From Gordonia westfalica (GTDB lineage: Bacteria; Actinomycetota; Actinomycetes; Mycobacteriales; Mycobacteriaceae): a stretch of 64,000 nucleotides of DNA. This document shows positions 27,911 through 30,595 of this stretch, piece by piece (the stretch's first letter is position 1; each line of letters begins with the position of its first letter). The notes beneath the pieces were generated by a model. The model was not told the DNA's origin. It saw nothing but the letters and a program-made list of their open reading frames with translations, and made no database searches. Both the position numbers and the translations under genes were made by a program. The stretch is taken from assembly GCF_900105725.1 (NCBI RefSeq), contig NZ_FNLM01000034.1, positions 744,001 to 808,000 on the forward strand. Direction: 5' to 3'.

Positions 27911-28024
27911 GGCTGTCAGTGTAGGGCCTGACGCATTTGCTGCAGCTCAGACCCACCGCCCCCCGCCGGCTGAGCCGGTACGGAGCGCAGCGACGAACCG
28001 CGTCGAAGCCCCTGATGACACGAC

Positions 28025-28051
28025 GCTGTGACTGCTGTGACTGCTGTGACT
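28025..28051 (+). repeat. Three tandem copies of a 9-base unit
   Basis: GCTGTGACT repeated three times without mismatch, 21 bases before the small HNH gene. It lies in its likely promoter/leader region; a direct-repeat operator or simple slippage are both possible. Confidence 0.8.
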
Positions 28052-28071
28052 CCGAGCGGTATCCTCCTCCC

Positions 28072-28422
28072 GTGGCCACCCGCAGCACGACCCGCGCCAA
28101 TCGCTACGCGAAGCGACGCCGTAAGCGTGTCGCCTCCCGCGACAACGACCTCACCGACACCCAGTGGCTCGCCCTTCAGGAGGCCTGGGGCGGTTGTGCG
28201 TACTGCGGCGCCGATGGGGTGGCTCTACAGCGCGACTGCATGCTCGCGATCTCCCGCGGCGGCCGCTACACCGTGACGAACGTCGTGCCGTGCTGCGGTT
28301 CGTGCAACGCGAGCAAGTGCAATTCCGAGGTCACCTCCTGGATGCGCCGCAAGAAGCTCGACGAGAAGGCGTTCCTGGTGCGGCAGTACGAGGTGAGCAG
28401 GCTCCTGGCCGACGTCGAGTAG
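28072..28422 (+). CDS. Small HNH-family endonuclease-like protein
   Basis: A 116-residue protein with a very basic N terminus (NRYAKRRRKRVASRD), then a zinc-knuckle HNH fold: WGGCAYCGADG supplies the first CxxC pair and VVPCCGSCNASKCN the second, separated by ISRGGRYTVTN. In the usual HNH pattern DH-x-P..GG, the first His is expected right after Asp; here the sequence reads QRDCMLAISRGG, so Cys occupies that position. Nuclease activity is therefore uncertain. GTG start at 28072; no strong ribosome site is seen. The stop is followed at once by the accessory patch with palindromic repeats. Confidence 0.75.
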   Translation: MATRSTTRANRYAKRRRKRVASRDNDLTDTQWLALQEAWGGCAYCGADGVALQRDCMLAISRGGRYTVTNVVPCCGSCNASKCNSEVTSWMRRKKLDEKAFLVRQYEVSRLLADVE

Positions 28423-28449: not shown

Positions 28450-28466
28450 AGTGTTCGCGGAACACT
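28450..28466. repeat. Palindrome copy A (1-base shortened)
   Basis: AGTGTTCGCGGAACACT: perfect 7-base arms AGTGTTC/GAACACT around GCG. It equals the family consensus GTGTTCCGCGGAACAC with one central C missing. It lies between the small HNH gene and the Ddn-like gene. Confidence 0.8.
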
Positions 28467-28510
28467 CTGTTGGAGCACACTGGGATCATCCCGGCGAAGG
28501 AGAGACGACC

Positions 28511-28960
28511 ATGAGCTTCGAGACCTCGACAGGTACACGTGGCGGCCGTGTGCCGAAGGGTCCCCTCATGCGCATCGTGAACACGATCGTGACGCCGAGG
28601 ATCCGCCGGAAGGGACAGTTCGGCGGTTCGAATGCGCTGGTGTTGCACACCACCGGCGCCAAATCTGGCAAGGAACGGTCCAACCCGCTCGCCTGGTTCC
28701 CCGGACCCGACGGCAGCTGGCTGATCGTGGCGTCGGCCAACGGCGCTGTCAACAACCCCGGCTGGTACCACAACCTGAAGGCGAATCCCGATGAGGCCCG
28801 GATCGAGGTGGACGGCAAGACCGTCGAGGTCCGCGCCCAGCAGCTCCACGGCGACGAGCGCGCAGCGGCGTGGAAGCAGATCAGCGAGAACGAGCGCTTC
28901 GCCGGGTACCAGGAGAAGACCGATCGGGAACTGCCGATCATCAAGCTGACCCCACGCTGA
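28511..28960 (+). CDS. Deazaflavin (F420)-dependent nitroreductase-family protein
   Basis: A 149-residue split-barrel protein of the Ddn/FDOR-A family, which uses reduced coenzyme F420 to reduce quinones or nitro compounds in mycobacteria. Typical elements are LVLHTTGAKSGKERSNPLAWF (F420 phosphate binding), WLIVASANGAVNNPGWYHNL and the tail ELPIIKLTPR. The ATG at 28511 has AAGGAG 9 bases upstream. It stands alone between two palindromic repeats; native substrate unknown. Confidence 0.9.
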   Translation: MSFETSTGTRGGRVPKGPLMRIVNTIVTPRIRRKGQFGGSNALVLHTTGAKSGKERSNPLAWFPGPDGSWLIVASANGAVNNPGWYHNLKANPDEARIEVDGKTVEVRAQQLHGDERAAAWKQISENERFAGYQEKTDRELPIIKLTPR

Positions 28961-28975
28961 CCACCCGGCCCTCCG

Positions 28976-28991
28976 GTGTTCCGCGGAACAC
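28976..28991. repeat. Palindrome copy B
   Basis: Perfect 16-base palindrome GTGTTCCGCGGAACAC, ending immediately before the stop codon of the DUF222-HNH gene on the opposite strand and 16 bases after the Ddn-like gene. It could serve as a shared terminator hairpin. Confidence 0.85.
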
Positions 28992-30416
28992 TCAGGCGGC
29001 CGCGGGAATGGCTGACGCCTGGCGTTCGCGCCACTCCCAGACGGCGTAGATCACCTCGGTGGCGTACCCGAGATCGAGCTTGCCGCCACCCACAGGCACC
29101 GTCGCATCAGCCGCGATCTGTTCATCGGGTGACCACAGGCCCGGTGCCCGGGTTGTTGGACTCACCTCGATCGCCGAACCATTCGGCATATGGAACGTAA
29201 ACCGCTGACGCCCATGAGTTTTGATAGAGAACTCACCTCTGTGCAGCGCCCGATGACATGACCCGCACAACAAAATCAGGTTGTCGAGCTCGGTCTCGCC
29301 ATCGTTGGACCAGAACACCACGTGGTGCGCGTGCAGGTGCCGTGTGCGCTCGCAACCCGGCGTCTGGCAGCACCGATCCCTCAGGAACAACGCCCGAATC
29401 ATCGCCTTCGACGGGGTCCGCTGCTTCCGACCCAACCCCAACAACGCCCGCTTCCCCGGACGACCAGGAACCCTCCTGGACAACGCTTCTCGTAGCGACG
29501 CACCACAGGCCGCTTCCTCGACCTCCGCCTCAGAGAGCGCCGGTCCGTCATCGAGATGAGCGCGCTCCACGCCATCACCGACATGGACAAGGATCTCCGC
29601 ACCCGGCGCCAACTCCGGCATCGCGATTCCCTCATGTACCGCATCGGCCATCGCCACCACCGCTACAGCAATATTCGACGGTACGTTTCGCCACAGATCC
29701 CGACGATTCGCCGGCTTCACCTCCGAATCCGTCTCGCCGGATTCGGTTTCCAGTTCGCCGGGAGTGTTCCGCGGAACACTCGGCAGATCAGAATCGCCCA
29801 TCGTGCGGGTGCGCTCGTACTCCGCCCGCACCGTCCCCGCCAGAAACCGCGCCCCATCCAGGGGCGTCAACGTCATCGACACTGACAACGAGCCATCGAG
29901 GTTCCACTTCCACCGAGCCCACGACTCCGCCGGCGGTACGAGTTCCCCACCATCGGCGTAGCCCTGGTCTATCTGGCGCATAGCCCGCACCGCCTTCTCC
30001 AGTTGCGACGCGGTGCACGACAGAGCCAGATTCACCAGTTCTTTCTCCCGCGACGGAGTTGCGACCCGAGTCAGCGCCCGCACCTTCGAATACGTCAGCC
30101 GGCCTTCGCTGAAGTGCTGCCGGATCACCGGCAACTCACGGAGCGCCTTGGCGACTCGCACCTGCTCATGTGCCGTCCGCGGTGCAATGCCGGCCTTCCA
30201 CGACAACCAGTGCGCCAACGAATGAATCCCCGGCCCTCGCCACGACTGTCGCTCATCCAACTCCGCCACCAGACCAAGGAACTCCGCCGTCAACGCCGTG
30301 ATCTGCGCGGCGTAACCGAGCACCCGAACCTCGAGCACCTCATCCGGGAGCGATTTCGGATCCGCACCGTCGAACATCGACGACACGCCCTCGGCACGTA
30401 ACGCGGTAACAGACAT
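28992..30416 (-). CDS. 13E12-type DUF222/HNH endonuclease-domain protein
   Basis: A 474-residue protein of the 13E12 repeat family found in multiple copies in mycolata. The N-terminal DUF222 domain spans about 20-330 (LDERQSWRGPGIHSLAHWLSW, then LRELPVIRQHFSEGRLTYSKVRALTRV). A C-terminal HNH domain follows at about 355-405, with RDRCCQTPGCERTRHLHAHHVVFWSNDGETELDNLILLC and the closing GSCHRALH, so its His and Cys residues are intact. The ATG at 30416 has GGGGGGT upstream. A 20-base perfect palindrome of the local repeat family lies inside the gene at 29762-29781 and is read in frame as SVPRNTP. Biological role unknown; such genes behave like mobile or endonuclease elements. Confidence 0.9.
   Translation of the reverse strand: MSVTALRAEGVSSMFDGADPKSLPDEVLEVRVLGYAAQITALTAEFLGLVAELDERQSWRGPGIHSLAHWLSWKAGIAPRTAHEQVRVAKALRELPVIRQHFSEGRLTYSKVRALTRVATPSREKELVNLALSCTASQLEKAVRAMRQIDQGYADGGELVPPAESWARWKWNLDGSLSVSMTLTPLDGARFLAGTVRAEYERTRTMGDSDLPSVPRNTPGELETESGETDSEVKPANRRDLWRNVPSNIAVAVVAMADAVHEGIAMPELAPGAEILVHVGDGVERAHLDDGPALSEAEVEEAACGASLREALSRRVPGRPGKRALLGLGRKQRTPSKAMIRALFLRDRCCQTPGCERTRHLHAHHVVFWSNDGETELDNLILLCGSCHRALHRGEFSIKTHGRQRFTFHMPNGSAIEVSPTTRAPGLWSPDEQIAADATVPVGGGKLDLGYATEVIYAVWEWRERQASAIPAAA
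29762..29781. repeat. Palindrome copy C inside the 13E12-type gene
   Basis: GAGTGTTCCGCGGAACACTC, a perfect 20-base palindrome. It falls in the variable linker of DUF222 and keeps the frame open. Confidence 0.9.
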
Positions 30417-30495
30417 CCCGACCCCCCAGCCAGTTCGAACAAATATACGAATAAGCTACCCTGGGGCACCGACAATTCCGCAGATCACGACTCCA

Positions 30496-30517
30496 CGAGC
30501 GTTCCGCGGAACGCTCG
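30496..30517. repeat. Palindrome copy D upstream of the 13E12-type gene
   Basis: A perfect 22-base palindrome with arms CGAGCGTTCCG/CGGAACGCTCG. Compared with copy C, T at arm position 5 is C and the opposite A is G, so the two arms changed together, which preserves pairing. It lies 80 bases upstream of the 13E12-type start. Confidence 0.9.
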
Positions 30518-30574
30518 ATACTGAGACCGGTTACCTGTGCCCACGCGCTGAACCAGGCAAGTCCCGAAGACGGC

Positions 30575-30595
30575 GAGTGTTCCGCGAAAATTCGC
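30575..30595. repeat. Degenerate palindrome copy E
   Basis: The left half GAGTGTTCCGCG at 30575-30586 matches the family; the right half is replaced by AAAATTCGC, which forms its own small dyad GCGAA-AA-TTCGC. It lies 40 bases before the orphan membrane-protein gene. Confidence 0.55.

Follow-up and report, generated by a model that had tools for sequence, protein, structure and literature searches.

Palindromes accompanying DUF222-HNH genes in Gordonia and related genera as probable DNA sites of the DUF222 domain

In mycobacteria, the DUF222-HNH genes of the REP13E12 (13E12) family lie in repeated units of about 1.4 kb, and we know of no palindromes at the ends of these units. HNH-type homing endonucleases are another case in which a nuclease gene spreads as a small unit. 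ParB acts with its parS sites in chromosome partition, and Noc acts with its NBS sites in nucleoid occlusion. The parS site is TGTTTCACGTGAAACA and the NBS site is TATTTCCCGGGAAATA, and the specificity of ParB/Noc is switched by a few residues, including the arginine R173 (PMC7383237). The name 13E12 is mentioned together with HNH and DUF222 in PMC10589994.

The Gordonia locus analysed here resembles REP13E12 in that DUF222-HNH genes lie in repeated units, and HNH homing endonucleases in that the nuclease gene sits in a small spreading unit; it differs from the latter in that the palindrome is part of the unit and is missing from most of the empty sites examined. With ParB-parS and Noc-NBS it shares the predicted DNA-binding fold and symmetric palindromes of similar make-up, and R173 of ParB/Noc corresponds to R80 of DUF222 in a hand alignment. 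Unlike in ParB/Noc, DUF222 is fused to an HNH nuclease, the sites are found within and next to its own gene, and no Pfam match to the ParB CTP-binding domain was found in DUF222-HNH, whose ParB/Noc-aligning part starts near residue 20-38. The likeness to REP-RAYT (TnpA-REP) lies in a nuclease gene beside clade-matched palindromes, with some stray copies elsewhere. The differences are that REP-RAYT has a HUH tyrosine nuclease whereas DUF222-HNH has HNH (at E 0.001 Pfam gives only DUF222 and HNH families, and no HUH match), that the palindromes of DUF222-HNH are few per genome with one inside the gene, and that the protein is predicted to read double-strand DNA in a ParB-like manner.

The window, i.e. 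the whole stretch of 64,000 nucleotides of Gordonia westfalica that was analysed, carries a gene of this kind among palindromes built on the 12-base core GTTCCGCGGAAC. The features are given one per line, the palindromes having no strand.

28452..28466, no strand: copy A, GTGTTCGCGGAACAC, one base short of perfect, reads as a decayed palindrome
28976..28991, no strand: copy B, downstream palindrome, perfect over 16 bases
28992..30416, minus strand: DUF222-HNH gene, 474 amino acids, HNH motif intact
29238..29381, minus strand: HNH nuclease motif, residues 346-393
29762..29781, no strand: copy C, internal palindrome, perfect over 20 bases
29937..30359, minus strand: predicted DNA-binding part of DUF222, residues 20-160, predicted ParB/Noc-like fold
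30138..30182, minus strand: codons of the predicted recognition helix, residues 79-93, of which residues 80, 81 and 85 covary with the palindrome
30435..30450, minus strand: LexA-like box (tentative), TCGTATATTTGTTCGA, 10 of 12
30453..30474, minus strand: promoter motif of RecA-NDp / PafBC type, TGTCGGTG-N8-TAGCTT, 26 bp from the upstream palindrome core
30496..30517, no strand: copy D, upstream palindrome, perfect over 22 bases, paired change in both arms
30575..30589, no strand: copy E, half copy

The five copies, three of them perfect (16, 20 and 22 bases), had been reported in a first-pass annotation and are all present where it placed them, as are the paired changes in both arms of copy D; copy A falls a base short and copy E is a half. 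Copy B directly abuts the stop codon of the DUF222-HNH gene and sits between this gene and an F420 reductase gene. Copy C had been described as carried in frame inside the DUF222-HNH gene, and it is indeed read there as V-P-R-N, between DUF222 and HNH. Copy D is the left edge of a repeated unit. A scan of the window gave no exact core beyond the copies, in agreement with the first reading. When two mismatches over the 12 bases were allowed, the window total (6 vs. 6.6 expected) was not above chance, so the signal exists only in exact or near-exact form. Since three relatives (G003, G035 and G005) have an intact core at the place of copy A, we read this copy as a decayed site. A second small HNH-like gene, below curated cut-offs, adjoins copy A (27937-28422).

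In the 6.4-Mb Gordonia genome, the core occurs 23 times in exact form and a reversed control pattern 0 times, while Markov models of order 1-4 trained on the window predict 0.9-1.4 cores per genome. Chance clustering of the palindromes is ruled out by these genome counts of the exact core. Among 59 Gordonia genomes, the gene was found in 34 (E 1e-60). The median number of cores is 7 in these 34 genomes vs. 1 in the 25 others (p 1e-7), with exceptions that include a genome with 12 cores and no gene match at E 1e-60 (G025). An even spread independent of the gene, or a frequency expected by chance, would have spoken against the link to DUF222-HNH genes proposed at the outset; neither was seen in the genome-wide search and the search of relatives. 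The exact cores number 0-31 per genome in the 59 genomes, and the high-copy extragenic palindromes that define REP-RAYT were not found. The palindromes belong to the DUF222-HNH gene.

The gene was examined in 29 close copies, with at least 69% identity, and in 13 distant copies; contig-end copies were left out of the site counts where the region is missing. The upstream site is present in all 26 close copies with the upstream region on the contig (25 exact, one with one mismatch) and lies 89-102 bases before the start codon in all close copies but one. The internal site is present in 27 of the 27 close copies that contain this region (26 exact). Within the 50 bases that follow the stop codon, 5/29 close copies have a site, and 10 of the 13 distant copies have an upstream site. 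When 24 units are aligned, no other 12-mer, coding sequence included, is as conserved as the upstream core. Upstream of a gene of G. rhizosphera (L191), seven cores or one-mismatch cores lie 475 to 183 bases before the gene.

At the internal site, the codons GTT CCG CGG AAC occur in 25 of the 27 close copies, while codon usage predicts 0.03 per copy, a difference to which shared ancestry contributes too. The other two sites are frame-shifted (G035b) or split between two frames with one mismatch (G005c). Among the close copies, V-P-R-N sits in a linker that is otherwise variable in sequence and length. In three distant Gordonia genomes (G049, G057 and G019), the gene has two such sites at other places, separated by 349 bases. 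They are read in two additional frames (assigned by eye) and encode R-S-A-E-R and F-R-G-T. Judging from the near-fixed codons set against codon usage, and from the other frames and peptides of the distant copies, selection on the internal site acts at the level of DNA. Domain shuffling at this site was considered and is unpersuasive, the two halves of the gene differing by at most about 8 identity points.

Both domains of the protein score above the curated Pfam cut-offs: DUF222 (PF02720) with E 5e-10 and 39.6 bits vs. 24.4, and HNH with E 9e-9 and 35.7 bits vs. 21.4. The predicted fold of DUF222 contains a helix-turn-helix DNA-binding domain of the ParB type. Foldseek gave no match at E 0.001 or better for the whole protein, and the ParB reading comes from the structure aligner's second look. 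Sequence support for the ParB likeness is weak: HTH_ParB reached a best E of 0.065, in 4 of 14 members, and an unrelated family scored 0.058 in 3. DUF222 is proposed as a ParB/Noc-type helix-turn-helix domain on the strength of its predicted structure, which makes it a candidate DNA reader. The structure alignment used 90 proteins, 120 being listed of the 773 homologous proteins found, and the domain alignment excludes one protein with a stop (L203). Most of the subfamily proteins listed, including the one in the window (28995-29003), end in Ala-Ala, an ending reminiscent of protease tags. This genome has 21 DUF222 matches, two of them perhaps pieces of one gene. A single palindrome for all DUF222 genes was rejected, repeated palindromes of at least 12 bases being found only at the two copies of this subfamily among the 21 matches.

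We searched 401 genomes of the GTDB-type family and found relatives in 75 genomes of 10 genera. We examined 102 elements, many of them interrelated, of which 99 have at least 150 bases upstream. A perfect 12-base palindrome centred on CCGCGG lies within 230 bases upstream in 83/99 elements, vs. 80 of 4965 random windows of the same length (1.6%). Of the remaining 16, a looser scan, for which there is no background rate, gave 11 near-perfect palindromes and 5 cases with none. The clades have different arms: Gordonia, Smaragdicoccus and some Williamsia have GTT, other Williamsia GCT, and the Rhodococcus and Antrihabitans types GTCCCC. Six genomes of Rhodococcus or Antrihabitans have the corresponding GTCCCCGCGGGGAC 4-10 times each, vs. 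0-1 times in the eight others searched. One Williamsia element has the GCT variant at all four of its sites. Where the variants are asymmetric, several elements (G. sputi, W. soli) have a downstream site that is the reverse complement of the upstream one. The Rhodococcus-type elements mostly have the upstream site only. In 28 Rhodococcus genes of another, multi-copy DUF222 subfamily (25-27% identity), the commonest palindrome centres are not CCGCGG, and the 400 upstream bases contain no exact RecA-NDp motif. In this Rhodococcus subfamily, a conserved SOS-box-like sequence stands upstream in place of the palindrome (L229-L257).

We compared these site variants with the proteins. Between GTT and GCT (19 vs. 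5 proteins), columns 81, 382 and 453 alone separate the classes at 80% or more; between GTT and TCC (25 proteins), columns 31, 42, 80, 135, 194 and 360 do so at 85% or more. Histidine at position 80 goes with GTCCCCGCGGGGAC, the GTCCCC type, in 32/32 rows (31 exact, one with a single mismatch) and occurs in no row outside this type, and column 80 is the only one that matches its site class one to one. Alanine at position 81 goes with GCTCCGCGGAGC, the GCT type, in 6 of 8 proteins, the exceptions (G131_L345 and G058_L374) keeping GTT sites; four T81 proteins also have a GCT arm on one side. By plain information column 81 ranks seventh, and by information squared divided by column entropy it ranks first. 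Tyrosine at position 85, together with R80 and T81, goes with GTTCCGCTGAAC in 5/5 proteins, although several other columns separate this third site class equally well and a protein with Q85 (L354) has a CGCT-type centre too. A tree was built from 81 proteins with the helix left out. It gives two independent pairs for each of the three switches, and residue and site agree in 6/6 (2+2+2); at two pairs per switch, no single independent-pair test is significant alone. This tree leaves out 19 proteins (internal stops or <330 residues) and seven partial or broken close copies, and its GCT pairs come from two GTDB genera, both Williamsia in named records. We infer from this covariation that DUF222 binds the palindromes. 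The earlier suggestion that they are target sites of the HNH protein thus gains good support in the sense of binding, the sites covarying with the predicted DNA-reading helix of a predicted ParB/Noc-like fold.

The repeated unit is about 1.5 kb long and occurs at several loci in Gordonia, with the palindrome as its left edge. The upstream palindrome is reached by 127 of 233 alignments between different loci, and 122 of these 127 end within 10 bases beyond the core, the largest overrun being 43 bases (G056b/G056c). At the right edge, none of 226 such alignments extends >20 bases past the stop codon, and the majority stop a little short of it. The unit thus keeps its boundaries from locus to locus, like a mobile element with defined ends. 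The same few loci, named A to D, are seen in different species. In three occupied genomes, the stop codon of a conserved gene at locus A precedes the palindrome by 6-18 bases. A comparison of occupied and empty sites, recommended in the first-pass annotation, showed that 13 of 15 further locus-A regions have no exact core, two of these 13 having another gene in place that looks DUF222-like by eye. The two others have a palindrome with part of the unit at a contig end (G022) and a lone palindrome where the gene is absent (G047). The palindrome therefore normally arrives with the unit. No target-site duplication was evident by eye at the boundaries of loci A and D. In a best-match comparison of ten units of three genomes, five are nearer to another locus of their own genome (three of three in G039, two of three in G015) while the other five (four of four in G056, one in G015) have their nearest match at the corresponding locus of another species, so copying or conversion between loci would be sporadic.

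Two lone palindromes of this genome (L053 and L057) read as relics that keep about 50 bases of the left end of the unit, at 82% identity. A MITE-like repeat was rejected for these two places, where the relics stand beside a separate dispersed hairpin. This hairpin (L057 5270-5329; L053 4973-5034) has arms of 27-31 bases and is found at many places in ten Gordonia genomes. Of the proposal of REP-like mobile units, there remains that the left palindrome edges a repeated unit and that two relics exist; a high-copy free repeat does not fit the genome counts. Carriage of the unit by phages or plasmids was likewise dropped, with one record of each found: the plasmid gene (39% identity) has a GTCCCC-type palindrome about 0.1 kb upstream, and 13 viral stretches contain the 16-base pattern.

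Neighbouring modules at locus A are also bounded by palindromes (L122 1620-3968; window 28452-28991). The F420 reductase gene is flanked by two cores in G003 and G035 and has one on its far side in G005; in the window, one of its two sites is decayed. An extra NhaA antiporter stretch is found in G003, and G035 has the same spacing. Elsewhere in this genome, lone cores lie in or between genes of type I restriction loci (L052 5837, 7783, 9299; L061 4340), where the genes are hsdM, hsdS, an Mrr-like gene and hsdR, and hsdM and an SbcC-like gene.

Between palindrome and gene, a RecA-NDp motif with at most 1 mismatch was found in 33/38 copies, vs. a background of 2%. The consensus of this motif is tTGTCRgtg-8-TannnT (PMC5656591), and it is the promoter type of PafBC-controlled genes induced by DNA damage (PMC6789036, PMC8223512). 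The upstream site lies 5-32 bp from the motif in the copies that have both the motif (at most 1 mismatch) and an exact site. A search by consensus found no sigma-70 promoter. In one sub-clade, 14 copies have the LexA-like box with a score of 10 of 12, and G044 has one with 11 of 12 elsewhere; the box was not retained as a LexA box, at least 10 of 12 being also reached in 3.5% of random windows.

The position of the site beside the promoter fits self-regulation, which needs less than the reading that we prefer. In its pure form, DUF222-HNH bound at the upstream palindrome beside the damage promoter would control expression of its own gene, the other sites would be auxiliary operators, and HNH would act elsewhere. 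This account requires just the binding that covariation supports, and it is in keeping with the upstream site being the commonest one (83/99) and the only one in most Rhodococcus-type elements, as well as with its closeness to the RecA-NDp motif. It offers no reason why similarity between loci ends at the palindrome (122/127 pairs within 10 bases), nor why sites stand right after the stop codon or bound neighbouring modules, and the distance from palindrome to promoter differs between clades. We regard autoregulation alone as rather unlikely.

The palindromes might also work as RNA or DNA hairpins, i.e. terminators, insulators or REP-like elements recognised by structure or by nothing at all. 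Copies C and D fold well (z -3.5 and -3.9), A- and T-rich edges flank some Rhodococcus-type sites, and the arms pair past the core more often than shuffled arms (position 7 paired in 0.81 vs. 0.47 over 163 sites, a figure inflated by the kinship of the sites), which is compatible with a symmetric protein site and also with a hairpin. However, the unpaired centre is mostly fixed and a hairpin does not predict covariation with residues 80, 81 and 85. The shared terminators once suggested for these elements are also contradicted by the lack of a T-tail at any of the five window copies and by copies inside coding sequence, in three reading frames. Hairpins are a very unlikely explanation. Even less credible is classical homing, in which the palindrome is a pre-existing target cut in empty alleles: the lone palindrome of G047 at locus A, where the gene is absent, speaks for it, but G047 is the only further locus-A region with a palindrome alone, and 13 of the 15 have no exact core.

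We therefore consider it probable, though well short of certain, that the palindromes are DNA sites read by DUF222, which would bring the HNH nuclease to its own unit. This explanation has its computed basis in the covariation, the predicted fold, the linkage and the role of the palindrome as the usual left boundary of the unit at its several loci. DUF222, as a symmetric pair, would read GTTCCGCGGAAC or the variant of its clade, and so place the nuclease at the left edge and at the linker between the domains, and in some clades also directly behind the stop codon. HNH may then nick or cut near these sites, which, after DNA damage, could help to copy or move the unit; autoregulation would be a likely side effect. 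The constant left edge, the several loci and the damage control fit mobility or copying, and mobility and self-regulation can coexist. Free sites in genomes are awkward for an active cutter. A stronger version is a self-addressed mobile module, in which a ParB/Noc-type reader with HNH cuts its own clade-specific palindromes, at the edges of its gene and inside it, when induced by damage, and so copies or exchanges the gene together with passengers enclosed by palindromes, for instance the F420 reductase and NhaA modules of this locus. We put this joint claim forward tentatively, passengers included, and hold it to be somewhat doubtful.

The literature search, which subscription papers largely escape, gave no title or abstract on such palindromes or on the DUF222 fold, and DUF222 was not in the title or abstract of any paper found to mention the domain. 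DUF222-HNH genes are numerous in some actinobacteria. Our result offers a candidate function for DUF222, namely ParB-like DNA reading as suggested by its predicted fold, together with its likely DNA site and residues on which specificity may depend. The natural variants are ready-made tests of this specificity and give a first testable handle on the large DUF222-HNH family. If cutting at the sites is true, it would suggest how such repeats spread and would provide a set of protein-palindrome pairs of different specificity.
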